Of a DNA stretch of 64,000 bases, positions 28,498 through 47,015 are shown piece by piece. The stretch comes from Kastovskya adunca ATA6-11-RM4. GTDB lineage: Bacteria > Cyanobacteriota > Cyanobacteriia > Cyanobacteriales > Coleofasciculaceae. The position numbers and the translations under genes are program-made. The notes under the pieces are model-generated. The model ran no database searches. It saw nothing but the letters and a program-made list of their open reading frames with translations, and was not told where the DNA came from. The DNA lies in assembly GCA_019359445.1 (NCBI GenBank), contig JAHHHJ010000003.1, forward strand, positions 1 to 64,000. Reading direction: 5' to 3'. Position 1 is the stretch's first letter. Every line of letters starts with the position of its first letter.

Positions 28498-30744
28498 ATG
28501 TTGATCTGTCCCCAGTGTCAGTTTGAAAACCCCAATACAAACAAGTTTTGTCAAAGATGTGGAACTTCCCTGACTCACAAAACCTGTCATGAATGCGCTA
28601 CCCTTGTCCCGGTAAATGCGGCAAATTGCCAAAATTGCGGGGCGTTTACAGGAACTGTCTGGTGGGCAATCATTTCTAGAGACTCAGGAGACTCAGGCTT
28701 ACAGACGGTGGCGGAGGGTGAAGCACAAGCGCCAGTAGAGGCAATAGAACCAGTTGCCCAGAACGCGGCGGAAGTAGAAACAGAAATACCTCAGCCCTTA
28801 ATTTCAGAAGCTGACGAAACCTTACCGCCGCTAGAGTCTTTGCCGGAATCCACCTCCAAGACCTCAGAGACTAGTCCCCTTCCGGAGCCGGAAGAAATAA
28901 CAGAAATACAAGTCCCGCTCAATCAGGCAAGTTTAGATTCAGAGGATCAAGAGGCTGTAATGCCTGAGAAAGGGAGTCTGAATGCTTCCCAGGAAGTGGC
29001 AGGGAGCGACAATGCTGTTGCCTCAACAACGGCAGTCACATTTTTAGATACGCAGCAACGCTACCGACTGTTGTCTTCTCAAGGCTTTGAAACGATAACA
29101 ACTGGGGAAGTTGTCGTACCAGTGTTGGACTCTCAACCGTTTCAAAAGTCGCTTTTGGAAGCGCTGATGGAGCAGCAACAAACCGATGGGGGAAACTTGG
29201 ATGCGGCTGGTTTTTCGGCACGAATTGAATCAGACGCTTGGGGAGTGATTGGCATTCCCGCGATCGCTAAACCTTATCTGGCTCTACAAGGCTCCTATTA
29301 CCCGATCATGCCAGAGGTACACGATGCTTGGCAGCAGGATCAAACGGCGGTGGTATTGCTGGAAGACCGTTCGGATTACCAACTCCTCTCTGAGTTGTGG
29401 GGACAAGAAGATATCCCAACGTTACAGCTTTTGTACTGGCTGGATGAAATGGCAAAGCTATGGGCAGCTTTAGAACCTTGGCACTGTCGTCAGAGTCTCT
29501 TGGAAGAGAGCAATTTGCGGGTGGATGAAGACCAGTCTTTAAGCCTCCAACGCTTGTATGTAGAAGCCCCAGGGCAGGTATTAACGCTTCAGGATTTGGG
29601 GAACAGGTGGCAGCAACTGTTCAATCAGTCCCAGCGAACGCAGTTTACCTCCCTCGATCAGTTACTTCGCTCTTTGCACGGTGGTGAGATCCAAACCGTC
29701 GAGGAATTGCGATCGCACTTAGAAGCGATCGCCCACGAACAACAATCTTCTTCAGATTCAATTCCCGAAGCCATTAATTCCACCGCGATCGCTACAGGAG
29801 CCACTCAGTCCATGACATCAGCATCTAACAACCCAGCAAATACCGGAGTCTTAGGCAAGGAGGGCGAGCGTAGCAATGAGGCAGACGATCTGCCGACAGT
29901 AATTTTACCAATGCAGTTATTAAGTCTCGATGATGCGGGTTGCACTGATATTGGTCAGCAGCGAGACCACAACGAAGACTCCTTCGGTATCCAAACCTCG
30001 ATCAAAAAGCAGGAAATGCCTATAGGACGGACGCTGCAGGCACGGGGCTTATACATCCTCTGCGATGGGATGGGGGGACATGCAGCCGGGGAAGTCGCCA
30101 GCGCCATGGCAGTAGATAGTCTAAATCGCTACTTTAGTGACCGCTGGAAAGATGAGTTGCCCACAGAAGAAACAATCCGCGAGGCAGTGCATCAGGCAAA
30201 TCACGCCATTTATGATGTTAACTTGCAAAATTCCAGCACCGGCAGCGGACGGATGGGAACGACGCTGGCAATGATTTTAATTCAAGATACCAATGTGGCG
30301 ATCGCCCATGTAGGAGACAGTCGCCTTTATCGCCTCACCCGCAAACGCGGCTTAGAACAAGTCACCACCGACCACGAAGTCGGTCAACGGGAAATTCGGC
30401 GGGGAGTAGAAGCCGCGATCGCCTATTCTCGTCCCGATGCTTACCAGCTCACTCAAGCCTTAGGCCCGCGCAGCGAACAATTTGTCAGCCCTGACATCCA
30501 ATTTTTAGAACTCAATGAAGATACATTATTTATATTGTGTTCTGATGGCTTGTCGGACAACGATCTGTTAGAAACATGTTGGCAGACTCACCTGGCTCCT
30601 TTACTCTCGTCTCGTGCCAATTTAGATCAAGGCATTCTGCAACTTGTTGAACTTGCCAACGAGCACAATGGTCATGACAACATCACCGTTATTCTCATCC
30701 GCGTCAAAGTGCGACCCAATTTTGACGGACAGCAATTAATTTAA
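28498..30744 (+). CDS. PP2C-type Ser/Thr phosphatase with N-terminal zinc ribbons
   Basis: Two zinc-ribbon units open the protein (CPQCQFENPNTNKFCQRCG and CHECATLVPVNAANCQNCG). An acidic linker and a middle region of about 280 residues with no recognised domain follow. The C-terminal PP2C domain (about 472-745) keeps the metal-binding motifs DHNEDSFG, DGMGGHAAGEVAS, HVGDSRLYRL and DGLSDND. It removes phosphate from Ser/Thr residues using Mn or Mg. It lies 129 bp upstream of an FHA-kinase on the same strand, a classic kinase-phosphatase pairing. Zinc ribbons in this position are common in cyanobacterial signalling proteins. Confidence 0.92.
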   Translation: MLICPQCQFENPNTNKFCQRCGTSLTHKTCHECATLVPVNAANCQNCGAFTGTVWWAIISRDSGDSGLQTVAEGEAQAPVEAIEPVAQNAAEVETEIPQPLISEADETLPPLESLPESTSKTSETSPLPEPEEITEIQVPLNQASLDSEDQEAVMPEKGSLNASQEVAGSDNAVASTTAVTFLDTQQRYRLLSSQGFETITTGEVVVPVLDSQPFQKSLLEALMEQQQTDGGNLDAAGFSARIESDAWGVIGIPAIAKPYLALQGSYYPIMPEVHDAWQQDQTAVVLLEDRSDYQLLSELWGQEDIPTLQLLYWLDEMAKLWAALEPWHCRQSLLEESNLRVDEDQSLSLQRLYVEAPGQVLTLQDLGNRWQQLFNQSQRTQFTSLDQLLRSLHGGEIQTVEELRSHLEAIAHEQQSSSDSIPEAINSTAIATGATQSMTSASNNPANTGVLGKEGERSNEADDLPTVILPMQLLSLDDAGCTDIGQQRDHNEDSFGIQTSIKKQEMPIGRTLQARGLYILCDGMGGHAAGEVASAMAVDSLNRYFSDRWKDELPTEETIREAVHQANHAIYDVNLQNSSTGSGRMGTTLAMILIQDTNVAIAHVGDSRLYRLTRKRGLEQVTTDHEVGQREIRRGVEAAIAYSRPDAYQLTQALGPRSEQFVSPDIQFLELNEDTLFILCSDGLSDNDLLETCWQTHLAPLLSSRANLDQGILQLVELANEHNGHDNITVILIRVKVRPNFDGQQLI

Positions 30745-30873
30745 AGATGGGGATTGGCAGAGCGGGAATTGACGCTTTGATGAATAGAATTTTGGTAATC
30801 AATCATGAGCAAATAGCAATGAACTATGAATAACGGACTAATGATTCATGTCTAAATGACTAATGACTAATTT

Positions 30874-32130
30874 ATGGTCACGCTGACACTTTTACATCCC
30901 CCGGCGCACACTCCCTTACAGCAGTGGCACTTTCAAAACCAATCGATTATTCGGATTGGTCGTTCCCCTGATAATGATGTCGTTATTAACGATCCCTTAG
31001 TCTCGCGGTATCACCTGGAACTAAAGGCAATCAATGCCTCAGCCGATAGTGCCTGGAAACTGCTCAATCAAGGAACCAATGGCACCTTTCTCAATGGGGT
31101 GCTAGTGTCGCGGGGGCTGCTTCCAGCGGATGCTCTAATTCAGTTGGCAAGAGAAGGGCCGTTGCTGAAATTTCAAACCCAGCCATTAACTGCTCCTGAT
31201 TCGCCAGCGACGCCCAGCGCTCCACCGCCAAAGGAGTTACTGGAGAAAACAATCCACTCTTTTGTGCCTTGTACCCATCCAGACAATTCACCCAGTAATT
31301 TATTTTGCATTCACTGCGGGCAACCTTTGGTAGAGGTGCAGCGATTTATCCACCAGTATCAGGTACTGCGGACGCTGGGTCAGGGAGGGATGGGGACAAC
31401 TTACCTAGCCTGGGAAAAAGGGGGGAAAACGTCATCCCATCCGCATTTGCTAGTGCTCAAAGAAATGAATGCAGATATGGCACAAATCAGCAAAGCTCAG
31501 GAACTGTTTGAGCGAGAAGCACGTACCCTTAAGGCGTTGAATCATCCAGGGATTCCTCAGTACTATGACTTCTTTGTCGAAGATGGGAAAAAATACCTGG
31601 CAATGGAACTCATTCATGGTCAGGATTTAGAGCAGCGAATTTATCAGCATGGGCCGATTGCCCTCCCGCAGGCGATTGGGTGGATGATCCAAACCTGTGA
31701 CGTTTTAGACTACATTCACTCCTGTAATCCGCCATTGATTCACCGGGATATTAAACCCGCTAACTTAATGGTTCGTCATCGAGAGCAGCGCGTGGTTGTT
31801 CTTGACTTTGGCGCGGTGAAAGAAATTGGCACTCCCCTCGGAACTCGCATCGGTGCAGAGGGATACAGTGCCCCAGAACAAGATCTGGGTCAACCCTGCA
31901 CTCAGTCTGACCTTTATTCAATTGGCCCAACGCTGATTTTTCTCCTCACTGGAGTCAACCCTTTCAAGTTTTATCGTCGTCTGGGTTCTGGCTATGGTTT
32001 TGATGTTAAAGGGATTCCCACGATTACGCCGCAGTTACGGGAATTAATTGAGCGAGTATGCGCCCCCAGACCGCGCGATCGCCACCAAACGGCTCAGGAG
32101 TTGTCACGCGCTCTCGCTGCTTGCCTGTAG
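30874..32130 (+). CDS. FHA-domain Ser/Thr protein kinase
   Basis: The N-terminal FHA domain (about residues 20-95) has IRIGRSPDNDVVI and NGTFLNG, for binding phosphothreonine. A single zinc-ribbon-like CTHP..FCIHCG unit follows at about 130-150. The kinase domain (about 160-418) has the glycine loop LGQGGMGTTYLA, the catalytic HRDIKPAN near 289, DFGA near 310 and SAPEQ. All key residues are present. No membrane segment or C-terminal sensor is visible, so it is probably cytoplasmic. It pairs with the phosphatase upstream. Its substrates are unknown. Confidence 0.93.
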   Translation: MVTLTLLHPPAHTPLQQWHFQNQSIIRIGRSPDNDVVINDPLVSRYHLELKAINASADSAWKLLNQGTNGTFLNGVLVSRGLLPADALIQLAREGPLLKFQTQPLTAPDSPATPSAPPPKELLEKTIHSFVPCTHPDNSPSNLFCIHCGQPLVEVQRFIHQYQVLRTLGQGGMGTTYLAWEKGGKTSSHPHLLVLKEMNADMAQISKAQELFEREARTLKALNHPGIPQYYDFFVEDGKKYLAMELIHGQDLEQRIYQHGPIALPQAIGWMIQTCDVLDYIHSCNPPLIHRDIKPANLMVRHREQRVVVLDFGAVKEIGTPLGTRIGAEGYSAPEQDLGQPCTQSDLYSIGPTLIFLLTGVNPFKFYRRLGSGYGFDVKGIPTITPQLRELIERVCAPRPRDRHQTAQELSRALAACL

Positions 32131-32875: not shown

Positions 32876-35800
32876 ATGAAGCAAAATTCAGGAGTGCTTG
32901 CGCCATCTCTCGTTGTTGAGAAAGATTCTCGCTTGACTCTGCAACGTCTTTTACCACCCTTACAATCAACACCAGACAGTCCCAAACTGCTCTCAAATTT
33001 GAGCCAGGACTTTGAATTTGTAGAGTTTCAACTGGGCGATTCTATTGATAGCATACCCACTGGCTCTCAAAATTCTGCTTATAGCGAACAAAGTCAACCG
33101 TATTTTTATATAATTTGCCAGGGGCGGGTACGGTTACTGAGCTTCGATGCTCAGAAACAACGAGAAGTTTCCGTCCAAGTCCTGACAGAAGGGGAAATCT
33201 TTGGCGGTGAGGCTTATTTTTGCCAGGAGGAGTGGTTGCCTTATCAGGCGATCGCGGCTAGCCCGGTGCAAGTCGCCCGCATTTCCCTAGACGCATTGCG
33301 CCCTTGGCTGGAGAAACCGGAACTCGCAGCCAACTGGCGTGCTAGCGCCCATAATCAGCAACGCCTCATCTTTTTTAAAACCGAAAGTGACTTGTGCGGC
33401 GAGAGTGTCTCCTTGGGGCGATCGCTTACCAGTCACCAACTGCAACAACTTTTACCCTACTTAGTGGAACAACGCATTCAAGCTGGGGCAGCGTTGGCGC
33501 AAGCGACACCCGCTAAGGCGGGTCGTTTTTGGCTGCGTCGCGGTCAAATTGATGGTCAATCTTTGCCGGAGGGGAGTTCCTGGGGCTATCCAGCAGATAC
33601 TCCCCTAACTGGTATTGCCCAAACCGATTTACTGGTTTACCAGCTACCCGCCGAACATTGGGAAACCGCCTGCGCGATCGCTCCCCTGCTAGCGACGGCT
33701 TGGGGAGATCCCGTCCCAACAAAGAGCAACGGACGCCAAGCCCGTCCTACCGGGCTTCCCTCCTCCCCCATTACCAGCAACGCTTCTCGTTCCCCTCAAC
33801 TGCAAGTTCCCCCAACTCTCTCCTCAAACGAATCCCCAACGGTGGAATTTCCTAAACCGTTGAAACATCGGCGCTGGCGCTGGGGGAGCTTTCCCTACAT
33901 CGAGCAACAAAGTACCTCCGACTGCGGGGCGGCTTGCTTGGCAATGATTAGCCGCTACTGGGGCAAGTCACTGAGCATTAACTTTATCCGCAATTTGGCA
34001 AATATCGGGCGGGCGGGGGCGTCTTTAAAAAGTCTTGCCAAAGCAGCAGAAAGTTTGGGTTACCAAGCGCGTCCGGTGCGGGCAAGTTTAAGCCGTTTGG
34101 TGGAGCAACAGCAGCCCTGGATTGCCCACTGGCAAGGCGATCACTACATCGTTGTCTATAAAGTTAAAGGCGATCGCGTACAGGTTGCCGATCCAGCGCG
34201 GGGAAAGCGATCGCTCACACGCTCAGCATTCCTCGCTGGCTGGACAGGATACGCCCTGTTGCTCGAACCCACAGAAGCTCTCAAAGCGCTTCCCAACGAA
34301 AAACAGTCCCTGGGCAGATTCTTGGCAGTACTTTTGCCCTACCGTTCCCTGTGGGGGCAAATTCTTCTGGCTTCCTTGCTCATTCAAGTTTTTGGGCTAG
34401 TTACTCCCCTATTTACCCAAATCATTCTTGACCAAGTAGTGGTCAACAGAAGCCTCAGCACGCTGAATGTTTTTGCCATCGGCTTATTGATTTTTGGAGT
34501 TTGGGGCATTGGCTTATCCGCAACTCGGCAGTATCTGTTGAGCTATTTTTCTAACCGCTTGGATCTCACCTTAATTAGCGGCTTTATGAGCCATACGCTG
34601 CTACTGCCTTTAAAGTTTTTTGAATCCCGCCATGTGGGAGATATCCTCACAAGGGTTCAGGAAAATCAAAAAATCCAGCGTTTTTTGGTTAACCAAGTAG
34701 CGATAGCTTGGTTGGATTTACTGATGGGGTTTGTCTACCTAGCGTTGATGTTTTATTACAACTGGCAACTTACCCTGTTGGTGCTGGCACTCATTCCCCC
34801 CATTTTCTTTTTGACCTTAGGTGCAACTCCTTTTCTGCGGAAAATTTCGCGGGATGTGTTTAATGATGCCGCCGAGCAAAACTCGGTACTGGTAGAAACG
34901 ATGACAGGTATTGCCACGGTAAAAGCAACAGCGGCAGAACAAGAGTTGCGTTGGCGTTGGGAAGACCGTTTAACCAAGTTCCTCAACGCGCGATTTCGGG
35001 CGCAGAAGTTGGGAATTAATTTGCAAGCTGCCAATGGCTTGATTAATTCCCTAGGAAGTACCGCTTTGTTGTGGTACGGGGCATTGTTGGTGATTCAAGG
35101 TGAGCTAACGATTGGTCAGTTTGTTGCCTTTAATATGCTGGTTGGGCGAGTCCTTAGCCCGGTGCTGGCACTTGTCGATATTTGGGACGAACTGCAAGAA
35201 GTTTTGATTTCTGTAGAACGGCTGAACGATGTTTTTTCTACTCAGCCGGAAGAGTCGCCAGGAAACCCCATGCTGGTGTTGCCACCCGTGCGCGGTGAGG
35301 TGCATTTGGAAAATGTTACCTTCCGCTACGACACGGAGGATGAACGGAACACGCTGGAGAACATCAATTTTTCTGTAGAGGCAGGGCAAACCATTGCTCT
35401 AGTTGGTCGTAGCGGTTCCGGTAAGAGTACGTTGGTCAAGCTGCTTCAGGGGTTATATCATCCCGTCAAGGGTCGAATCTCGATTGATGGTCATGATATC
35501 CGTCATGTTTCTCCCCAGTCTTTGCGATCGCAATTGGGCGTTGTTCCCCAAGACTGTTATTTATTCTCTGGGACGATTTTAGAAAACATAACCCTGTATC
35601 GCCCGGAATTTACGATGGAGCAAGCGATTGAAGTTGCCAAGCTAGCGGAAGCTCATGCATTCATTCAAATGCTGCCTCTGGGTTACAACACCAAAGTCGG
35701 AGAGCGGGGCGCAAGCCTATCGGGAGGACAGCGGCAACGGATTGCGATCGCCCGTGCTTTGTTGGGAGAACCACGGATTTTGATTTTGGATGAAGCAACT

Positions 35801-36025
35801 AGTTCCCTAGATACCGAGTCAGAACGGCGATTTCAGCAAAACCTCGCTCGCCTTTCCCGCGATCGCACCACCTTCATCATCGCTCACCGCCTCTCCACGG
35901 TACGCAATGCAGACTGCATCCTCGTCCTAGACCGAGGCATTCTCGTTGAACAAGGCACCCACGACGAACTAATGGCAAAAGAAGGGCTTTACTACCATCT
36001 AGCCCAGCAGCAGCTCGATCTTTAA
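32876..36025 (+). CDS. hetC: HetC-like peptidase-containing ABC exporter (C39)
   Basis: 1049 residues in the inner membrane. A cyclic-nucleotide-binding-like domain lies at about 40-160 (IICQGRVRLLSF, GEIFGGEAYF). The C39 cysteine peptidase at about 340-470 has an intact triad: Cys350 (TSDCGAAC), His423 (GDHYIVVY) and Asp439 (VADPA). Membrane segments span about 480-780. The ATPase has GRSGSGKST near 845, LSGGQRQR near 948, LILDEATSSLD near 970 and IAHRLST. C39 exporters cut precursors after a double-glycine leader while exporting them. Domain order and length match Anabaena HetC, and a HetP-like gene lies downstream as at that locus. Other cyanobacterial C39 exporters are the alternative. 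Confidence 0.88.
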   Translation: MKQNSGVLAPSLVVEKDSRLTLQRLLPPLQSTPDSPKLLSNLSQDFEFVEFQLGDSIDSIPTGSQNSAYSEQSQPYFYIICQGRVRLLSFDAQKQREVSVQVLTEGEIFGGEAYFCQEEWLPYQAIAASPVQVARISLDALRPWLEKPELAANWRASAHNQQRLIFFKTESDLCGESVSLGRSLTSHQLQQLLPYLVEQRIQAGAALAQATPAKAGRFWLRRGQIDGQSLPEGSSWGYPADTPLTGIAQTDLLVYQLPAEHWETACAIAPLLATAWGDPVPTKSNGRQARPTGLPSSPITSNASRSPQLQVPPTLSSNESPTVEFPKPLKHRRWRWGSFPYIEQQSTSDCGAACLAMISRYWGKSLSINFIRNLANIGRAGASLKSLAKAAESLGYQARPVRASLSRLVEQQQPWIAHWQGDHYIVVYKVKGDRVQVADPARGKRSLTRSAFLAGWTGYALLLEPTEALKALPNEKQSLGRFLAVLLPYRSLWGQILLASLLIQVFGLVTPLFTQIILDQVVVNRSLSTLNVFAIGLLIFGVWGIGLSATRQYLLSYFSNRLDLTLISGFMSHTLLLPLKFFESRHVGDILTRVQENQKIQRFLVNQVAIAWLDLLMGFVYLALMFYYNWQLTLLVLALIPPIFFLTLGATPFLRKISRDVFNDAAEQNSVLVETMTGIATVKATAAEQELRWRWEDRLTKFLNARFRAQKLGINLQAANGLINSLGSTALLWYGALLVIQGELTIGQFVAFNMLVGRVLSPVLALVDIWDELQEVLISVERLNDVFSTQPEESPGNPMLVLPPVRGEVHLENVTFRYDTEDERNTLENINFSVEAGQTIALVGRSGSGKSTLVKLLQGLYHPVKGRISIDGHDIRHVSPQSLRSQLGVVPQDCYLFSGTILENITLYRPEFTMEQAIEVAKLAEAHAFIQMLPLGYNTKVGERGASLSGGQRQRIAIARALLGEPRILILDEATSSLDTESERRFQQNLARLSRDRTTFIIAHRLSTVRNADCILVLDRGILVEQGTHDELMAKEGLYYHLAQQQLDL

Positions 36026-36542: not shown

Positions 36543-38177
36543 ATGAGCTTTTTTAAACGTTTTTTCCGAAGCAGTTCCCCATCAACGGTTTCCAGCCAGC
36601 GAGATCGAGTTACGGCATCAAACAGCACCAATGCTGCCCCAAGGGAATCCTCCTTGTCAGCCACGACGGATACGGCTTCGATTTATGGCGGTGTGGCTAG
36701 CAGGGCGCTGCCAGTTCCTGAAACCTCGACGGCTACAACTCAGTGGTCTAGTTCGGTGCAGACGCTGTTAGATCAGCCTCCTGCAACGCTTCCCTTTCGC
36801 CTCATTGTTGGCGGCATGATTTTCAGTGTTGCCTTTGGTGCCTGGGCATGGTTTGGGCAAATCGAAGACGTGGGTAAAGCTCAAGGGCAGTTGGTGCCGC
36901 AAGGAAAAACCTACAAAGTTCACCCGATTGAGGCGGGCAAGGTGACGGCGGTGGCAGTGAAAGAAGGCGAGACAGTCCGCCAAGGGCAGGTGTTAGCTGA
37001 GTTGGATACTGAGTTGGCACAAAAAGAAGTCGATCGCCTCCAGCAATTACTTAGTGCCTACCAAACCGAATTAGGTCAAAAGCAATCGTTGCTGGAACAA
37101 ATGGGTTTGTCTGCTCAAACCCGTACCGCGATCGCCTCAGCCGATTTGGGCGCTCAACGCAGTGCGATCGCTCAGGCAAGGGAGAAAGCCGCCACAACTC
37201 GCCGATTGCTGGCACAACTGGGAACGGAATCCACGGCTTATCAAGAACGAAGAACCCGCCTAAAACCGCTCACATCAACGCTGCAAGAACGCCTCCAGCA
37301 GCTACGCACCGAGGAAGCGGCACATCAACAGCGCTTAGAACGGCTAAAAACGCTGGGGAAAGAAGGAGCAATTTCCCAAGAATATATCTTTCAAGCCGAG
37401 CAAGCCTTGCGCGATACGCAGCAGCGCATCACTCAAAGCCAACTGCAAGAAGAAACCAGTACCAACGAGCAATTGTTTCAGGCGGAACAATCCTTACGCG
37501 ATCGCACCTCGGCGATTACCACAAGCGAAGGCGAACTGGCTTCTGCCCTCGAAGAAGTCGAGCGTTCTCAAAGCGAATTTGCCCGGAAGCAAGCAGAGGG
37601 ACGCAACATCAAAAACGAAGCCGAGGAGCAAATACAGCAGCTTAAAGTGGAAATTACCCAGCTTGAAGCGAAAATTGCCGAAACGAAAAATTTGCTCGTC
37701 AGTGCCCAAGCCAAACTACAACAACGGTTTCTCTATGCTCCTGTTGATGGCGTCGTTTTATCCCTCAACCTGCAAAATACGGGCGAAGTTGTTCAACCCG
37801 GACAAACCCTTGCCGAAATTGCTCCCCAAAAAGTCCCCTTAGTTCTCTCCGCCGTGCTGCCGAACCAAGAAGCTGGCTTCGTCGAAAAAGGGATGAGCGT
37901 GCAAGTAAAATTCGATGCTTATCCCTATCAGGATTATGGAATTATCCCCGGCAAGGTTGTATCCATTTCCTCTGATGCCAAAGCCGATGAACGGTTGGGG
38001 GCAGTCTATCGCGTAGAAGTGGCATTAGACCGCAACTATGTCACCGCCCAGCAAGAAAAAATTTTCTTCAAGGCAGGTCAGACTGCCACTGCCGATATTA
38101 TCATTCGCCGCCGCCGTATTGCCGATGTATTGTTCGACCCGCTCAAGCAACTGCAAAAAGGCGGAATCAATTTGTAA
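36543..38177 (+). CDS. HlyD-family periplasmic adaptor of the peptide exporter
   Basis: 544 residues. A Ser/Thr-rich cytoplasmic N terminus is followed by one membrane helix (84-104, [21 protein letters not shown]). Split lipoyl halves ([23 protein letters not shown] and [20 protein letters not shown]) flank a long coiled coil at about 150-395. A beta-barrel domain ends the protein. Such adaptors bridge an inner-membrane ABC exporter to an outer-membrane channel. It lies downstream of the HetC-like gene with a 517-bp gap and probably has its own promoter. No outer-membrane TolC-like gene is adjacent. Confidence 0.9.
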
Positions 38178-38206: not shown

Positions 38207-38566
38207 ATGCATCAACGCGCTTCACACACAGACACAGGTCTAGATAAAGCAATGAACCCCGAACAATTTAACCAAATTGTTGAAGCCATTCTCGCGGGTA
38301 AGTACTCTTGGGCTTGTGTTTTGATTCTGCGCTTTTCTGGATACAATCCTTTACACTACATTCCTTACCGCACGTATAACCGCTTGCTCAAAGATAACTG
38401 TCCCCCTCGCCAAAAGCGCCTGAATAAAGCACGTACTTCTGAGCCATCTGAGCAAGCAACCGCTAACGAACGCTGCACTAAAATTAGCGACCTCGCTTAC
38501 TTAGAAGCCGTCAGCGCTCGACACAGTAAAGTTCGAGGTGGTGGTATCGCTGCTTGGTTTCGGTGA
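38207..38566 (+). CDS. hetP: HetP-like protein ending in a double-glycine leader-like sequence
   Basis: Residues 16-65 carry [12 protein letters not shown] and [18 protein letters not shown], then [13 protein letters not shown], which I recognise as the HetP family of heterocyst-commitment regulators. A basic linker follows. The last 27 residues ([10 protein letters not shown]...[12 protein letters not shown]) match the leaders of the secreted peptides downstream (ISDLNYLE...GG). Cleavage after GG would release a peptide of about seven residues. The ATG at 38252 is an alternative start that removes 15 residues. It is 29 bp after the adaptor, so cotranscription is likely. The HetP call rests on memory of the family pattern. 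Confidence 0.75.
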
Positions 38567-38837: not shown

Positions 38838-38867
38838 CCTACCTGCTCCCAAGAGGTAGGTTTTTTT
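38838..38867 (+). terminator. Rho-independent terminator after the HetP-like gene
   Basis: A perfect 7-bp stem CCTACCT/AGGTAGG with a 9-base loop, followed directly by seven T. Confidence 0.8.
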
Positions 38868-39069
38868 GTTAAGTTTGCCGAACTTTAATCAATCCCAAGT
38901 TGCAGCCATTACTTTGACAACAGCTTCTATAAAGCAAATTTCACCCTCTAAATTAAAAGTGCAAAAACCGAAAATAAATACACTGAGTTTTTATGAAATT
39001 TACATGAAGATTACTTAAAGAAATGATGAATTATTTCTAAATTCTCTATATATAAAACTAGAAAGAAAC

Positions 39070-39160: not shown

Positions 39161-39388
39161 ATGGTTATTTCCGATCTAAATCATCTAGAAGTTGTTACTG
39201 AAGAGAAAAATATCCTTGGAGGCGGTCGGTTTCGTCGGATTCCTGTAGCAAAAGCAGAGTCAGTAGCAACTGCAGATGCTATTGGTAGCCGTTATACTGA
39301 ATCCTACACGTTCACCAGCGCACAATCTGTTGCAGGTCTTTTCTCTAGCTCCGCCTCCGCATCTTTTGCGGAATCTAGAGGTAACTAG
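39161..39388 (+). CDS. Double-glycine peptide precursor (75 aa)
   Basis: The leader MVISDLNHLEVVTEEKNILGG (residues 1-21) would be cut after GG by the C39 exporter. It leaves a 54-residue core that starts GRFRRIPVAKAES and is rich in Ser and Ala (SVAGLFSSSASASFAES). A purine-rich ribosome site (TTGAGGAAGCA) precedes the ATG. The gene has its own operator candidate, -10 and downstream hairpin, so it looks monocistronic. The leader is shared with the tandem paralogues but the core is not. Its function is unknown; a secreted matrix or signalling peptide is inferred. Confidence 0.8.
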   Translation: MVISDLNHLEVVTEEKNILGGGRFRRIPVAKAESVATADAIGSRYTESYTFTSAQSVAGLFSSSASASFAESRGN

Positions 39389-39585: not shown

Positions 39586-39861
39586 ATGACTCAACTCAAA
39601 ATAGCCGATATTAACTTCTGTGAAACAGTTCTTCAAGAAGAGGGTGGTATTACAGGAGGTCGCATTACACCTCGTGTTTTCACTGCTGCGGCTACTGCCT
39701 CTGACACATTTCTAGATGCAAGAGCTAATAGAAGTGGAGACCTCGCCAGTGGATTCACCCTGAATCTTTTCGGTCGCGGTAGTGCTGCTTCTGCCGCTGC
39801 TTCCGCAGTCTCCCTCGGCGGTCAGGCATCAGCAAATGCCTATGCTAATGCCAATGAGTAA
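39586..39861 (+). CDS. Double-glycine peptide precursor (91 aa)
   Basis: The leader MTQLKIADINFCETVLQEEG continues GITGG, ending at residue 25, with the ISDLN-like IADIN and a hydrophobic-acidic helix. The core of about 66 residues is rich in Ala, Ser, Gly and Asn (GRGSAASAAASAVSLGGQAS, then ANAYANANE), a low-complexity composition. The ribosome site GTAAGGAGAGACACA precedes the ATG. A long hairpin follows at 39890-39929. Export by the HetC-like protein is inferred from the leader. The function of the core is not known. Confidence 0.78.
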   Translation: MTQLKIADINFCETVLQEEGGITGGRITPRVFTAAATASDTFLDARANRSGDLASGFTLNLFGRGSAASAAASAVSLGGQASANAYANANE

Positions 39862-40159: not shown

Positions 40160-40396
40160 ATGATTATTTCCGACTTAAATTATCTCGAAACTGCTTCTGC
40201 TGATGTTGTTGGTGCACATAGTTACAACAGCGTGAATACGACTACTTACAAGCAGGCTTTCGTCAATCAATACTCTGGTGCCTATAGCGAGACATCCGCC
40301 GTCTTCGGTGATGACTACGGCTACAGCTACTACGGTAACTCCTCCAGTGCCTACTCCAACGCTAGTTCTTCTAACTCCTCTTACATCAATCAGTAA
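40160..40396 (+). CDS. Tyr/Ser/Asn-rich secreted peptide precursor, unit 1 (78 aa)
   Basis: The leader MIISDLNYLETASADVVGA (1-19) ends in Gly-Ala, which C39 peptidases also accept in place of Gly-Gly. The core of about 59 residues is nearly free of charged and aliphatic residues and rich in Tyr, Ser and Asn (DDYGYSYYGNSSSAYSNASS). Such composition is seen in prion-like, amyloid-forming or self-adhering matrix proteins. It is the first gene of a four-gene tandem array behind the operator at 40072. The ribosome site AAAGGAGCAAGCC is strong. No cysteine is present. Export is inferred; self-assembly is a hypothesis. Confidence 0.85.
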   Translation: MIISDLNYLETASADVVGAHSYNSVNTTTYKQAFVNQYSGAYSETSAVFGDDYGYSYYGNSSSAYSNASSSNSSYINQ

Positions 40397-40423: not shown

Positions 40424-40648
40424 ATGATTATTTCCGACTTAAACTACCTCGAAACTGCTTCTGCTGATGTTGTTGGTGGAGATAGTTACAACAGCGTGAA
40501 TTTCTCGACTTACAAGCAGGCTACCGTTATTCAAGACTCTGACGCCTATAGCGAAACATCTGCCTTCTTTAGTGATGGCTACGGCTACGGCTACTCCAAC
40601 GCCTCCTCCAGTGCCTACTCCAACAACTCTTCTTACATCAGCCAATAA
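40424..40648 (+). CDS. Tyr/Ser/Asn-rich secreted peptide precursor, unit 2 (74 aa)
   Basis: The leader is the same as in unit 1 but ends in a true Gly-Gly (ADVVGG, residues 14-19). The core (DSYNSVNFSTYKQATVIQDS, then a YGYGYSNASSSAYSNNSSYI tail) differs from unit 1 mainly by short deletions in the Tyr/Ser/Asn tail. The unit-to-unit DNA identity is high, so duplication is recent. It lies 27 bp after unit 1 with its own ribosome site. Cotranslated dosage of near-identical peptides suggests a structural rather than catalytic role. Confidence 0.85.
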   Translation: MIISDLNYLETASADVVGGDSYNSVNFSTYKQATVIQDSDAYSETSAFFSDGYGYGYSNASSSAYSNNSSYISQ

Positions 40649-40677: not shown

Positions 40678-40896
40678 ATGATTATTTCCGACTTAAACTA
40701 CCTCGAAACTACTTCTGCTGATGTTGTTGGTGCATATAGTTACAACAGCGTGAATTTCTCGACTTACAAGCAGGCTACCGTTATTCAAGACTCTGACGCC
40801 TATAGCAAGACATCTGCGTTCTTCGGTAATAGCTACGGCTACTCCAGCGCCTCCTCCAGTGCCTACTCTAGCAACTCTTCTTACATCAGCCAGTAA
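40678..40896 (+). CDS. Tyr/Ser/Asn-rich secreted peptide precursor, unit 3 (72 aa)
   Basis: The closest relative is unit 2. The leader MIISDLNYLETTSADVVGA ends in Gly-Ala and the core starts YSYNSVNFSTYKQATVIQDS. The tail is shortened to SYGYSSASSSAYSSNSSYIS. The alternation of Gly-Gly and Gly-Ala ends among units could change how efficiently each is processed. The ribosome site and spacer are nearly identical to those of unit 4. Confidence 0.85.
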   Translation: MIISDLNYLETTSADVVGAYSYNSVNFSTYKQATVIQDSDAYSKTSAFFGNSYGYSSASSSAYSSNSSYISQ

Positions 40897-40925: not shown

Positions 40926-41138
40926 ATGGTTATTTCTGACTTGAACTACCTCGAAACTGCTTCTCCTGATGTTGTTGGTGCTGGCGGTTACAGCAGCTTT
41001 AGCCTCACCGACTTGAACCTCAAAACTGCCTTAGTCAGACAAGACTCGAAAGCTAAGAGCAGTGCTTATGCCGTTTACGGTAATGCTTACTCTAGTGCCT
41101 ACTCTTCCAACTACTCTGTCATCTACCAGTATGACTAA
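40926..41138 (+). CDS. Ser/Tyr-rich secreted peptide precursor, unit 4, diverged (70 aa)
   Basis: The leader MVISDLNYLETASPDVVGAG is conserved but the core has diverged most (GYSSFSLTDLNLKTALVRQD), with a Ser/Tyr tail AYSSAYSSNYSVIYQYD. It carries several Lys and Asp residues that units 1-3 mostly lack. Same strand and spacing as the others. Leader conservation with core drift is the pattern expected for a family under selection for export by one transporter. Confidence 0.83.
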   Translation: MVISDLNYLETASPDVVGAGGYSSFSLTDLNLKTALVRQDSKAKSSAYAVYGNAYSSAYSSNYSVIYQYD

Positions 41139-41276: not shown

Positions 41277-41558
41277 ATGAGTTTAATAGTTATTGCTGAA
41301 CTTGATTTTTTAGAAGTTGATTCTAGCAAAAATCAACTCAAAGGCGGTTTTTTATTTCCAAATCAGCCTGCGCGTATACCCTTGCCTTCCTTGAGCGGTA
41401 AAGGAACTGTTGCCTTTAGCGACATTAGCTCTAACCAAAACGGTACTGAAACTCAAATAAGTTCATACAGTGTAGCCGAGGTTTCTCCCAATGCCCAGGA
41501 GGATAGCTTGACTCTTAGTTCTGTATCTTCTTCTTTAATTGTTGTTAATTCGTTTTAG
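41277..41558 (+). CDS. Double-glycine peptide precursor (93 aa)
   Basis: The start ATG at 41277 follows AAGAGGAAAACA; an upstream in-frame ATG at 41199 lies inside the hairpin and is not preferred. The leader MSLIVIAELDFLEVDSSKNQ continues LKGG and ends at residue 24. The core of 69 residues begins FLFPNQPARIPLPSLSG and becomes Ser/Thr-rich (SLTLSSVSSSLIVVNSF). The AELDFLE helix matches SDLNYLE of the other leaders. Its core is unrelated to the tandem peptides. Function unknown. Confidence 0.78.
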   Translation: MSLIVIAELDFLEVDSSKNQLKGGFLFPNQPARIPLPSLSGKGTVAFSDISSNQNGTETQISSYSVAEVSPNAQEDSLTLSSVSSSLIVVNSF

Positions 41559-41616: not shown

Positions 41617-42228
41617 ATGACTCAGTTAACTCAAAGCGCGTTTTACCTGACTCTGTTTAGCATAGTAACTGCCGTTGTTCCTGCTGCTCAAGCTAATCCC
41701 GTTCATAGTAGTGCGAGTTCTACTTCATCTGCTATCAGCAACAACGGAACTGTGACAGCAACCACGACGACTTCAGCAACAGGCAACGCTACCGCTACGG
41801 CTAACGCCACCGCCACTTCAAACAACTACACGGCTACATCTACCTCTTCTTCTACAGGTGGATTTAGCAACAGCTTGTCTACAGCCACGTCTCCAACTAG
41901 CCTTCCTAGTAGTAGTAGTGCCACTACTGGCTTTTTTCCAACTGCTACCTCTAGCAGTGCGAGTGCAACAGCCTTTACCTCGCCAACTGTAGCGAATACA
42001 ACCAACGCGAGTGCTGTTGCACCTACCATTAACTCTGCTATACCGACAAGCAACTTAAGTTCGCCCAGTACCTTTATTGCTGCCTTTTCCACGCCACCTG
42101 TTCAAGACGGCGATACTAATTTGGCAGCAAACAAGACGGCTAGCGGCAATGCTTCGACTTCTTTAAGAGTAATTGGACCCTATAGCCGCGTTTTCCCAGG
42201 CTTGATTGGTATCGAAGAAGAGCGGTAG
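41617..42228 (+). CDS. Secreted Ser/Thr/Ala-rich low-complexity protein
   Basis: 203 residues. A Sec-type signal peptide (FYLTLFSIVTAVVPAAQA, cut near residue 26) replaces the double-glycine leader. The mature part is mostly Ser, Thr, Ala and Asn (TSATGNATATANATATSNNY, SSSSATTGFF), with a short ordered tail (SLRVIGPYSRVFPGLIGIEEER region). Composition resembles glycosylated or matrix-forming surface proteins. It sits between the peptide genes and the PPIase, so it may be part of the same extracellular material. It has no recognised domain. Confidence 0.72.
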   Translation: MTQLTQSAFYLTLFSIVTAVVPAAQANPVHSSASSTSSAISNNGTVTATTTTSATGNATATANATATSNNYTATSTSSSTGGFSNSLSTATSPTSLPSSSSATTGFFPTATSSSASATAFTSPTVANTTNASAVAPTINSAIPTSNLSSPSTFIAAFSTPPVQDGDTNLAANKTASGNASTSLRVIGPYSRVFPGLIGIEEER

Positions 42229-42387: not shown

Positions 42388-43125
42388 ATGATCTCTTTGT
42401 CAAAAGAACCGATTCAACCGGAAGAAATTCTCAGTTTTTTGAAAAAAAAAATTTGTTTCAAAGAAATTTGTCAAGAAATTTTACAGCAACAGATCGTTGA
42501 TAGAGTTGCTCAAGAAAAAGGCATAGCAGTAACGCCAGAAGAGATACAAACTGAAGCCGAGCACACTCGTCGAGAAAAGCATTTAGAAAAAGCGTCAGAT
42601 ACTCTGGCTTGGCTAGCCGAGCAGATGATTACACCAGAAGACTGGGAAGCGGGAATCCGCGATCGCCTAATTACTCAGAAATTAGCAGAAGACTTACTTT
42701 CTAAAGAAGTTGAAAAGTATTTTGCACAGAATCGGCTAGATTTCGACCAAGTTTTGCTTTATCAAATTGTTGTTCCTTATGAAAAAATTGCTTACGAACT
42801 TTTTTATCAAATTGAGGAACAAGAAATCAGTTTCTACGAAGCGGCTCACCTTTACGATCTTGATGAAAGACGCAGGCATCAGTGTGGTTATGAAGGAATA
42901 CTTCATCGCTGGAGCTTGAAACCTGACGTAGCCGCCGTAGTTTTTAGTAGCAGTCCAGGGGAAATAACTCGTCCGCTTAAGACAGAGCAGGGATATCATA
43001 TCTTCCTGGTTGAGGAATTTATGGCGGCGGAACTAACACCGCAATTGACAGAAGAAATTCGGCAAACAATGTTTCTTGAGTGGCAAAATAGCGAACTCAA
43101 CTACCTGCTTTACAACCAAAGTTGA
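42388..43125 (+). CDS. Parvulin-type (PpiC/SurA-like) peptidyl-prolyl isomerase
   Basis: 245 residues. A helical SurA-N-like region (about 1-135) is followed by a degenerate parvulin domain at about 145-225. Its end retains the family pattern FSSSPGEITRPLKTEQGYHI and FLVEEF. There is no signal peptide, so it would act in the cytoplasm unless carried by another route. In this locus it may keep the low-complexity precursors unfolded, or help them, before export; this is inferred from position. The start ATG has no strong ribosome site. Isomerase activity cannot be judged from sequence, because several active-site positions look altered. Confidence 0.8.
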   Translation: MISLSKEPIQPEEILSFLKKKICFKEICQEILQQQIVDRVAQEKGIAVTPEEIQTEAEHTRREKHLEKASDTLAWLAEQMITPEDWEAGIRDRLITQKLAEDLLSKEVEKYFAQNRLDFDQVLLYQIVVPYEKIAYELFYQIEEQEISFYEAAHLYDLDERRRHQCGYEGILHRWSLKPDVAAVVFSSSPGEITRPLKTEQGYHIFLVEEFMAAELTPQLTEEIRQTMFLEWQNSELNYLLYNQS

Positions 43126-45083: not shown

Positions 45084-47015
45084 GTGAAAGCGGACGCTCA
45101 TCCGCTCTTGTTGGGGCAGTTACTACAGGAGCGTTACCAAGTTGTTCAAGTTCTCAGTGCTGGGGCATTCGGACAAACCTACATTGCCCAAGACACTGAG
45201 CGGTTAGACAGTCCAAAATGTGTCATTAAGTGTCTCAAGGCTCACAATCAACACTCAAATTTGCTGCACATTAGCAGGCGTTTGTTCATGGCTGAAGCAG
45301 AAACTCTGCAAAAAGTGCATGATCATCACCAAATCCCTCAGCTACTCGCTTGTTTTGAAGAAAATCAGGCATTTTATTTAGTGCAAGAGTGGATTGATGG
45401 GCAATCCCTAATGACTGTCTTACCTGACAGGAAGCATGGTGACACGCGGTGGAGTGAAAGTCAGTGTATTGCTTTGCTGCGAGATGTTTTGGGGATTTTA
45501 GAGTTTATCCATCGCCAAGGTGTCATTCACGGCGATCTCAAGCCGAACAACTTGATCAGACGCCATTGTGATGGCAAGTGCGTGCTGATTGACTATGGTG
45601 CGGCGCATCCGGTTCGCCCTTATCTGCGCCCTCATGCCGTCAAGTTGGCGCAATCTGAGGTATTAACAATTAAGCCCTTTGGTTACTTACCGCTAGAGCA
45701 ACTGCTTGGACAACCCCAACCTAACAGTGATATTTACGCCTTGGGGATAATTGGCATTCAAGCTCTCACCGGAATTGATCCAGCAAATTTACAAACCAAT
45801 CCGGATACTAACGAAGTTCTCTGGCGTAATGAAGTATTGGTGAGCAACCAACTGAGTAGCGTGTTGGAACGGATGGTTTGCTATGACTGCAACTCTCGTT
45901 ACCCGTCAGCCAGAGAGGTTTTACAAGCACTGGAACCCTTATCTTTTGCTGAAGCACCAGTCTTGGTGGCATTTCCTGGCTTTTTGCCCGTTGAGCCTGT
46001 TTTGCCTAATGCGATCGCGGAAGTTCTCGCCGACTACTCTTTTCTAATTCCCTCTGAGAACAGCCCTGCTGTTAATGCCGATGCCACACCTCTTGATGTG
46101 CAGATCATGAGCGCCGAAACCGAGAGCGAGACTGTAGAGCTTCAGATGAGTTTTAAAGAACTTGCTGCAGCTTTTGTTCCCGATTTGCCGCCGCTGCTTA
46201 AGGGAGTGAGTGCGGGAATGGCAGCGACAAATGCTATAACGATCGCCGTTGGGCTATCCTCACTGATCCATGTTGGGGCGTCTAATACTGGCAGCGATCT
46301 GTTGTGGCAAGCAACAGAACAGTATCAGGCAGGAAATTTCAAAGGCGCGATCGCTCTTGCTCAATCTGTTCCTAAGGAGAGTACTGTCTATGAAGAAACC
46401 CAGGCGGCAATCCAAACCTGGCGCTGGGAGTGGCACAGCGCTACAGCTCGTTTCCAATCAGCACAACAGGCATTTAAGGAAAGTCGGTGGCTGGATGTGG
46501 CAGAAGCTGCCCGTCAGATTCCTGATGTCCCCTACTGGCAAGCAAAACTTGCCCCACTGCTAGAGAAAACAGCCCCCAAACTAGAGGCAGAAGCGCACAA
46601 TCTCCTGCAAAAAGCCTATGATCGAGCCGCGAGCAAAGACTTCGCTGGCGCTCGCAACTATCTCTTACAAATTCCCCAACAAACCTCCATCGGCAGCCAA
46701 GTACAACAAAAACTAGCCGAGTATACCCAAAAGCAGTCCATCAAAGCTGATGCCATATTGCAAAAAGCTTACGAACGCGCCGCCAAGCAAGACTTTACCC
46801 AGGCGGTAGTCTACCTCAGACAAATATCAGAAGACACCCCCGCCCACAAAACCGCAAAAGTCAAAATTGCCGAGTACACCGCCAAGCATCGTATCAAGGA
46901 AGAAGCCGAGGCGCTAGCCGCTTCGCAGAAATCAAAACAATCTCAAATCTCCTCAGCATCTAGTAACCTCAATCCTGGTACTCGTCTCCGTGAAGTGGTA
47001 GGAGTAGGGAATTAG
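45084..47015 (+). CDS. Atypical Ser/Thr protein kinase with C-terminal TPR-like repeats
   Basis: It starts at GTG (the ribosome site GGGAAGGA precedes it). The kinase domain (about 10-290) has a glycine loop LSAGAFGQTY and a lysine in VIKCLK. The catalytic loop is HGDLKPNN near 149 in place of HRD. The metal-binding motif reads IDYGA near 169 in place of DFG. Catalytic Asp and Asn are kept, so activity is possible. A possible membrane helix lies at about 375-400. The C terminus (about 405-625) has repeated helical units of about 65 residues (LLQKAYDRAASKDFAGARNY, ILQKAYERAAKQDFTQAVVY) that look TPR-like. Cyanobacterial kinases of this plan are common. Substrates are unknown. Confidence 0.87.
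   Translation: MKADAHPLLLGQLLQERYQVVQVLSAGAFGQTYIAQDTERLDSPKCVIKCLKAHNQHSNLLHISRRLFMAEAETLQKVHDHHQIPQLLACFEENQAFYLVQEWIDGQSLMTVLPDRKHGDTRWSESQCIALLRDVLGILEFIHRQGVIHGDLKPNNLIRRHCDGKCVLIDYGAAHPVRPYLRPHAVKLAQSEVLTIKPFGYLPLEQLLGQPQPNSDIYALGIIGIQALTGIDPANLQTNPDTNEVLWRNEVLVSNQLSSVLERMVCYDCNSRYPSAREVLQALEPLSFAEAPVLVAFPGFLPVEPVLPNAIAEVLADYSFLIPSENSPAVNADATPLDVQIMSAETESETVELQMSFKELAAAFVPDLPPLLKGVSAGMAATNAITIAVGLSSLIHVGASNTGSDLLWQATEQYQAGNFKGAIALAQSVPKESTVYEETQAAIQTWRWEWHSATARFQSAQQAFKESRWLDVAEAARQIPDVPYWQAKLAPLLEKTAPKLEAEAHNLLQKAYDRAASKDFAGARNYLLQIPQQTSIGSQVQQKLAEYTQKQSIKADAILQKAYERAAKQDFTQAVVYLRQISEDTPAHKTAKVKIAEYTAKHRIKEEAEALAASQKSKQSQISSASSNLNPGTRLREVVGVGN

Follow-up and report, generated by a model that had tools for sequence, protein, structure and literature searches.

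A double-glycine leader-type signal near the C terminus of HetP that tracks its neighbouring HetC-type exporter

Gene content of the locus

The window, a stretch of 64,000 nucleotides from Kastovskya adunca ATA6-11-RM4, contains a gene cluster that encodes, on one strand, a peptidase-containing exporter, a HlyD-family membrane-fusion protein, a HetP-family protein and seven small peptides (Table 1). The exporter has the composition of HetC and other peptidase-containing ABC transporters (PCATs), that is, a C39 domain with its catalytic residues, ABC domains and an N-terminal cNMP domain, and the relatives of its C39 domain with known structure are PCAT1-type and LahT-type proteins and ComA. 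No other protein of this genome gives a strong C39 match; the one further match, a weak one (contig C6, 75512-75877, minus strand), lies in a 1003-residue frame, misses the start of the profile and is perhaps a degenerate C39-like domain. The seven small ORFs 3' of hetP share a leader of the form ISDLxYLE...GG, and a terminator-like hairpin possibly separates the exporter-HlyD-hetP unit from these peptide genes.

Table 1. Features of the exporter-hetP-peptide cluster (window coordinates)
Feature	Position	Strand	Basis
HetC-type exporter, 1049 aa: cNMP-binding, C39 peptidase, ABC membrane and ATPase domains	32876..36025	+	Pfam cNMP_binding, Peptidase_C39, ABC_membrane, ABC_tran
C39 peptidase domain; catalytic Cys (EQQSTSDCGAACL), His (GDHYIVV), Asp (ADPARG)	33890..34276	+	Domain match, catalytic residues
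HlyD-family membrane-fusion protein	36543..38177	+	TIGR01843, 241 bits; ends 29 bases 5' of hetP
HetP-family protein, 119 aa	38207..38566	+	NF037966 match
HetP domain (residues 3-64), predicted three-helix unit	38213..38398	+	NF037966; AlphaFold2
Leader-like signal, residues 93-112	38483..38542	+	PSSM 25.8 bits, 0/20,000 shuffles; conserved columns I93, D95, L96, Y98, G111, G112
Putative released tail GIAAWFR, Trp at P5'	38543..38563	+	Sequence
Terminator-like hairpin and T run, 3' of hetP	38841..38868	+	Consensus scan only; 3 found vs 1.2 expected, not significant
Small peptide, leader ISDLNHLEVVTEEKNILGG	39161..39388	+	ORF list, leader PSSM
Small peptide, leader IADINFCETVLQEEGGITGG	39586..39861	+	ORF list, leader PSSM
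Small peptide, leader ISDLNYLETASADVVGA	40160..40396	+	ORF list, leader PSSM
Small peptide, leader ISDLNYLETASADVVGG	40424..40648	+	ORF list, leader PSSM
Small peptide, leader ISDLNYLETTSADVVGA	40678..40896	+	ORF list, leader PSSM
Small peptide, leader ISDLNYLETASPDVVGAGG	40926..41138	+	ORF list, leader PSSM
Small peptide, leader IAELDFLEVDSSKNQLKGG; internal ATG preferred over ORF start 41199	41277..41558	+	ORF list, leader PSSM

Directly 3' of the peptides lies a gene (41617-42228) for a protein of 203 residues that is rich in Ser, Thr and Ala, seems to have a signal peptide and has no Pfam match, and a PpiC-type peptidyl-prolyl isomerase (42388-43125), with a weak, below-cut-off match to the peptide-maturation model TIGR04500, also adjoins the peptide genes. 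Zinc-ribbon/PP2C-like and FHA/Ser-Thr kinase-like proteins, as read from their sequences, precede the cluster (28498-32130), and a kinase-like protein, read in the same way, follows it (45084-47015). The genome encodes HetR, and no NifH was found in it: the sole strong Fer4_NifH match, a protein of 288 residues, is ChlL by our reading of its sequence. The organism is therefore most likely not a heterocyst-former.

HetP and its C-terminal signal

HetP is encoded once in this genome. Its domain scores 122 bits against the NCBIfam model NF037966 (HetP_family; cut-off 45), which places the protein in the family, and in a single-chain AlphaFold2 model the domain is a confidently predicted three-helix unit (residues 21-60 have block means of 93-97). 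The tail of this model is largely without structure and of low confidence, which would be compatible with free entry into a C39 groove. The fold of the domain has no match among solved structures, and a PDB sequence search with HetP returned no significant relative. A polar linker connects the domain to a C terminus of the form I93-S-D-L-A-Y-L-E ... V-R-G-G112, followed by GIAAWFR; a cut after GGG instead of GG would give the tail IAAWFR. The preliminary description of this DNA had named the ORF a HetP-like protein ending in a double-glycine leader-like sequence that matches the leaders of the peptides next door, and both the family match and the scores below bear this out.

A PSSM was built from 44 small-peptide leaders taken from HetP-bearing loci of many genomes, in all of which (44/44) an Ile stands two residues before the Asp, a position not required by the search pattern. 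On this profile the HetP tail reaches the same score (Table 1) with or without the peptides of its own genome; the best of the shuffles scored against the full PSSM reached 15.3, and among 551 window ORFs only HetP and its seven neighbouring peptides exceed 10. Like the leaders, the HetP signal ends in GG with a hydrophobic residue at -4, the latter being I, V or L in 79/81 HetPs and 41/45 peptides. GG itself is kept in 81/93 HetPs, and the distance from Glu to GG is exactly 10 residues in 74/81 HetPs, compared with mostly 7-9 in the peptides.

Conserved in the C terminus are IxDLxYLE, its spacing of 10 residues from GG, the I/V at -4 and GG itself; a Trp at the fifth position after GG is also frequent. 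When the 51 heterocystous-type HetPs that have an exporter upstream are compared in pairs, the signal is on average 85% identical, compared with 34% for the linker and 31% for the tail; the first value is somewhat inflated, since the pattern used to select these proteins itself prescribes some of the signal positions. Trp at P5' occurs in 40/53 heterocystous-type HetPs and in 10/37 others, the window protein included (GG-GIAAW), and HetC-less Nostoc have Arg at this position (SLDRRLAQ). Aromatic residues make up 15% of the tails and 0.9% of the linkers in 45 mostly non-heterocystous HetPs.

In double-glycine precursors, all sequence upstream of GG counts as leader. That leaders normally sit at the N terminus, as had been pointed out, holds for most precursors and not for the NHLP/Nif11 types, so that HetP, with its signal at residues 93-112 of 119, may still work like a precursor; the placement counts against a classical precursor only. 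A folded domain ahead of a GG signal is unusual and has precedent in NHLP/Nif11-type precursors (PMC3140520), which are cut by C39 (LahT-type) proteases and, like HetP, have a larger N-terminal unit before GG. Unlike these precursors, the window HetP gave no match to their leader families in the scans done and has a very short tail after GG. The RG(S/T)GR pentapeptide of PatS/PatX/HetN-type heterocyst inhibitors is absent from the tail, and the likeness of RGGG to RGSGR is, as first described, merely superficial.

Distribution of the signal and linkage to the exporter

HetP is present in 63/386 cyanobacterial genomes, and the comparison covered 120 loci of up to 19.5 kb and 80 named loci. The motif was found in 28/34 HetPs with an intact upstream exporter versus 20/90 other copies (Fisher P=1.1e-9), and many of these 20 are HetC-less orthologs that keep the core of the motif with an altered GG. 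Behind HetC-type (cNMP-C39-ABC) exporters the signal spans cyanobacterial families, whereas HetP paralogs of Nostocaceae that lie away from the exporter are without the complete motif; a HetP copy that adjoins its own exporter and HlyD (G336, locus L079) keeps it. Some exporter-linked HetPs are without the tail (L145, L130, L087), and a HetC-containing Tolypothrix/Spirirestis-type group has RGRG.

A single clade takes in the exporters encoded upstream of HetP, whether from the window, from other non-heterocystous families or, as HetC, from Nostocaceae (36 rows, SH-aLRT 97 by a quick method, with HetC nested in a group with 100); the window exporter thus groups with HetC of heterocystous cyanobacteria. 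Nostocaceae exporters encoded downstream of hetP were rejected as partners of HetP: they fall into a clade of their own, and where such an exporter is the only one present the HetP signal has almost always decayed, one Nodularia (G282) being an exception. Many Nostocaceae (L033, L049, L050 and other loci) encode another cNMP-C39 exporter close to hetP, frequently together with HlyD; these second exporters have their own clade, and no ISDLxYLE peptides were found for them in the HetC-containing loci searched.

ISDLxYLE-GG peptides occur in 17/19 non-Nostocaceae exporter loci (52 candidates in total, a few probably spurious) and in 0/15 HetC-containing loci of Nostocaceae, so that in heterocyst-formers the 19-kb loci around HetC yielded no signal-bearing protein other than HetP.

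Decay of the signal after loss of HetC

No intact exporter precedes HetP in 29 Nostocaceae genomes. When these genomes were searched in full, an intact HetC ortholog was not found at any other place either, full-length or long alignments reaching at most 37% identity versus 59-100% for true HetC, and shorter C39-only matches to other exporters reaching up to about 50%; relocation of HetC in the genomes with a decayed signal is therefore unsupported. Remnants of HetC were found in two genomes (G165, G123). Fragments upstream of hetP are what is left of HetC at the loci of these two (L054, L071) and at two named loci of the Nostoc group (L181, L225), and HetC seems dispensable in members of this group with a fragmented HetC, which presumably still form heterocysts. 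In two Nodularia-type HetCs (L044 and L058, in G197 and G249), Ser stands in place of the catalytic Cys (DSGAACL), the G197 protein has a replacement of the catalytic His too (EIDYVVV), and the HetP tails of both genomes stop shortly after RGSG/RGGG.

Dependence of the signal on HetC was assessed on a tree of HetR and 16S from 42 genomes, the HetR codons being added because 16S was recovered from only part of them. The signal is intact in 10/11 genomes with a functional HetC versus 4/31 without (Fisher P=6.6e-6), the 31 taking in the two Nodularia with a Cys-less C39 domain. With the tree taken into account, a model in which signal loss depends on HetC is preferred over independent loss (LRT 11.8, 1 df, P=0.0006), with loss rates of 0.08 in the presence and 3.5 in the absence of HetC, about 45 times higher after its loss; regain was forbidden, both traits were assumed present at the root, and the G197 branch, which is artificially long, probably through a poor 16S row, was capped. 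Judged by eye, the tree implies about six separate losses of HetC. The forms of decay differ (GG to GS, GN or RSS, DL to DR or ER, truncation), and one HetC-less genome (G030) has an intact signal. The HetP domains of HetC-less genomes still score well above the cut-off, and hence it is the tail that decays and not the protein.

HetP therefore shows evolutionary dependence on a C39 exporter, and the motif is neither absent from all HetPs beside such exporters nor a constitutive HetP feature: relocated paralogs and most HetC-less orthologs are without it. Co-occurrence across families, absence in relocated paralogs and decay after HetC loss strongly support the link between tail and exporter. 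Of the earlier suggestion that HetP may be a fusion that couples regulation to peptide export, the link to the exporter stands; 'fusion' is probably not the best term, since exporter-linked HetPs widely share the tail, which seems to be ancestral among them and to have been lost later in the Nostocaceae paralogs.

Relation to known systems

The motif pattern is already known: KIxDLxYLEx10GG was reported in 2011 in HetPs near cyanobacterial bacteriocin clusters, with the proposals that HetP is a possible precursor class and that an M16 peptidase may act on the motif (Wang, Fewer, Sivonen, PMC3140520). The window HetP belongs to the same family and has the same motif and the same kind of gene neighbourhood. 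New here are the dependence on HetC, the contrast with relocated paralogs, the near-fixed gap, the Trp at P5' and the finding of no other clients in heterocystous loci; in the open-licence literature we found no publication of the first four, although subscription work may overlap.

HetC is essential for heterocyst differentiation, and the HetC peptidase of Nostoc PCC 7120 is active in vitro and required in vivo, its substrate being unknown (PMC10986499). The same 2024 paper reports no leader-bearing gene near hetC, where a C-terminal signal could have been missed by a search for N-terminal leaders, and raises the question of whether HetP-derived peptides are exported by HetC. In PCC 7120, HetC-GFP and HetP-GFP are both found at the heterocyst poles and are functionally linked; the C-terminal HetP-GFP fusion is functional, cytoplasmic and polar, its localisation is similar whether or not the HetC peptidase domain works, and a hetC peptidase mutant can be bypassed by supplying more HetP (PMC4133259). 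The window exporter and HetP correspond to this pair by their grouping with HetC and the HetP family model, and Anabaena relatives (L206) carry IKDLAYLEVVGKQKTEIHGGNLDRWL, the sequences compared excluding the PCC 7120 HetP itself. Unlike the PCC 7120 pair, the pair in the window is still accompanied by HlyD and by the seven small peptides with GG leaders, in a genome with HetR in which no NifH was found.

Proposed mechanism and alternatives

With moderate confidence, we favour a model in which the HetC-type exporter has HetP as a double-glycine client and probably cuts it after GG, so that a short aromatic tail is released. The HetP domain would form a compact unit followed by a disordered linker with the C39 recognition signal (IxDLxYLE, ten residues, GG); the C39 domain of the exporter would bind this signal in the same way as the leaders of the neighbouring small peptides and cut after GG, so that the short aromatic-rich tail (GIAAWFR in the window) would be let out and the shortened HetP would stay in the cell. 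The small peptides have disappeared from the locus in heterocyst-formers, with HetP as the signal-bearing protein that is left beside HetC.

The steps of this model differ in strength. Recognition of the signal by the exporter is well supported by evolutionary evidence, namely the identity of the signal, its linkage and its dependence on HetC. Cleavage by the C39 domain we infer from the conservation of GG, the near-fixed gap and the intact catalytic site; export of the cut tail would follow, and a function for the exported tail is speculative. HetP is the best candidate for HetC's client, as it shares a tag with the exported peptides and this tag decays when the transporter is lost. Several findings count against the model: the gap of 10 residues exceeds that usual for the peptides, the RGRG group and the three tail-less HetPs have an exporter, and the Trp at P5' lies beyond the proposed cut and also fits an uncut docking element. 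Because HetP-GFP is functional and an excess of HetP bypasses the peptidase mutant, cleavage is not required for the core activity of HetP.

The main rival is docking without cleavage, in which the HetP tail is a C39-binding substrate mimic that anchors HetP at the polar exporter or gates the exporter, with GG and Trp in the binding surface. It is consistent with the polar location of both proteins and the function of the C-terminal GFP fusion, with conservation that runs past GG to the Trp, with the statement that catalytically dead C39 domains still bind leaders (PMC10986499) and with the Nodularia-type exporters that have lost the catalytic Cys, one of whose HetPs keeps GGG. Against it, HetP-GFP is localised no differently when the hetC peptidase is mutated (PMC4133259), and GG, which cutting requires and binding of the helical part does not, has been conserved with an almost invariant spacing; on balance we consider docking alone unlikely.

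It is improbable that something else, such as the M16 peptidase proposed for the HetP motif (PMC3140520) or a second regulator, reads the tail and that the link to HetC is indirect: the motif equals the leaders of C39 clients and decays with the C39 exporter, and the scan of window proteins, which covered part of the ORFs, revealed no M16 peptidase. Origin of HetP from a peptide precursor or a fusion, with the signal surviving as an evolutionary relic, would account for the single consensus of leaders and HetP tail and for paralogs that live without the signal. A relic would not be expected to track the exporter as this signal does, being far better conserved than the linker while HetC is present and lost so much faster afterwards, and we regard this origin as very improbable. 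Chance resemblance, which the shortness of the motif and nothing else would favour, is ruled out by the shuffles and by recurrence across families.

The comparative evidence, then, places a HetC-linked signal in the neighbouring HetP, near its C terminus, where it has been kept by selection mainly while HetC is present, and the question of the HetC substrate becomes directly testable in Nostoc PCC 7120. Extending the client model, HetP may be the HetC substrate at heterocyst commitment, with the regulator domain kept in the differentiating cell and a short Trp-containing peptide sent out, an arrangement inherited from the peptide-export clusters of non-heterocystous cyanobacteria; we put this forward as possible and rather doubtful. 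If true, a single protein would be the source of a commitment factor that acts inside the cell and of a signal between cells. The finding suggests how a pathway of multicellular development could have grown from a peptide-export cluster.

Gram-positive pheromone precursors, for example ComS/XIP, are cut to short C-terminal peptides. The possible HetP product resembles these in being a short aromatic C-terminal peptide; there is no sequence relation and the export route differs, so that the likeness is an analogy only. In other HetPs the tail after GG measures 4-64 residues, and at three loci of one family (L131, L132, L133; f7) it is, in contrast to the short tails found elsewhere, about 52 residues long, with a common conserved end (GFKTR[WL]FN).
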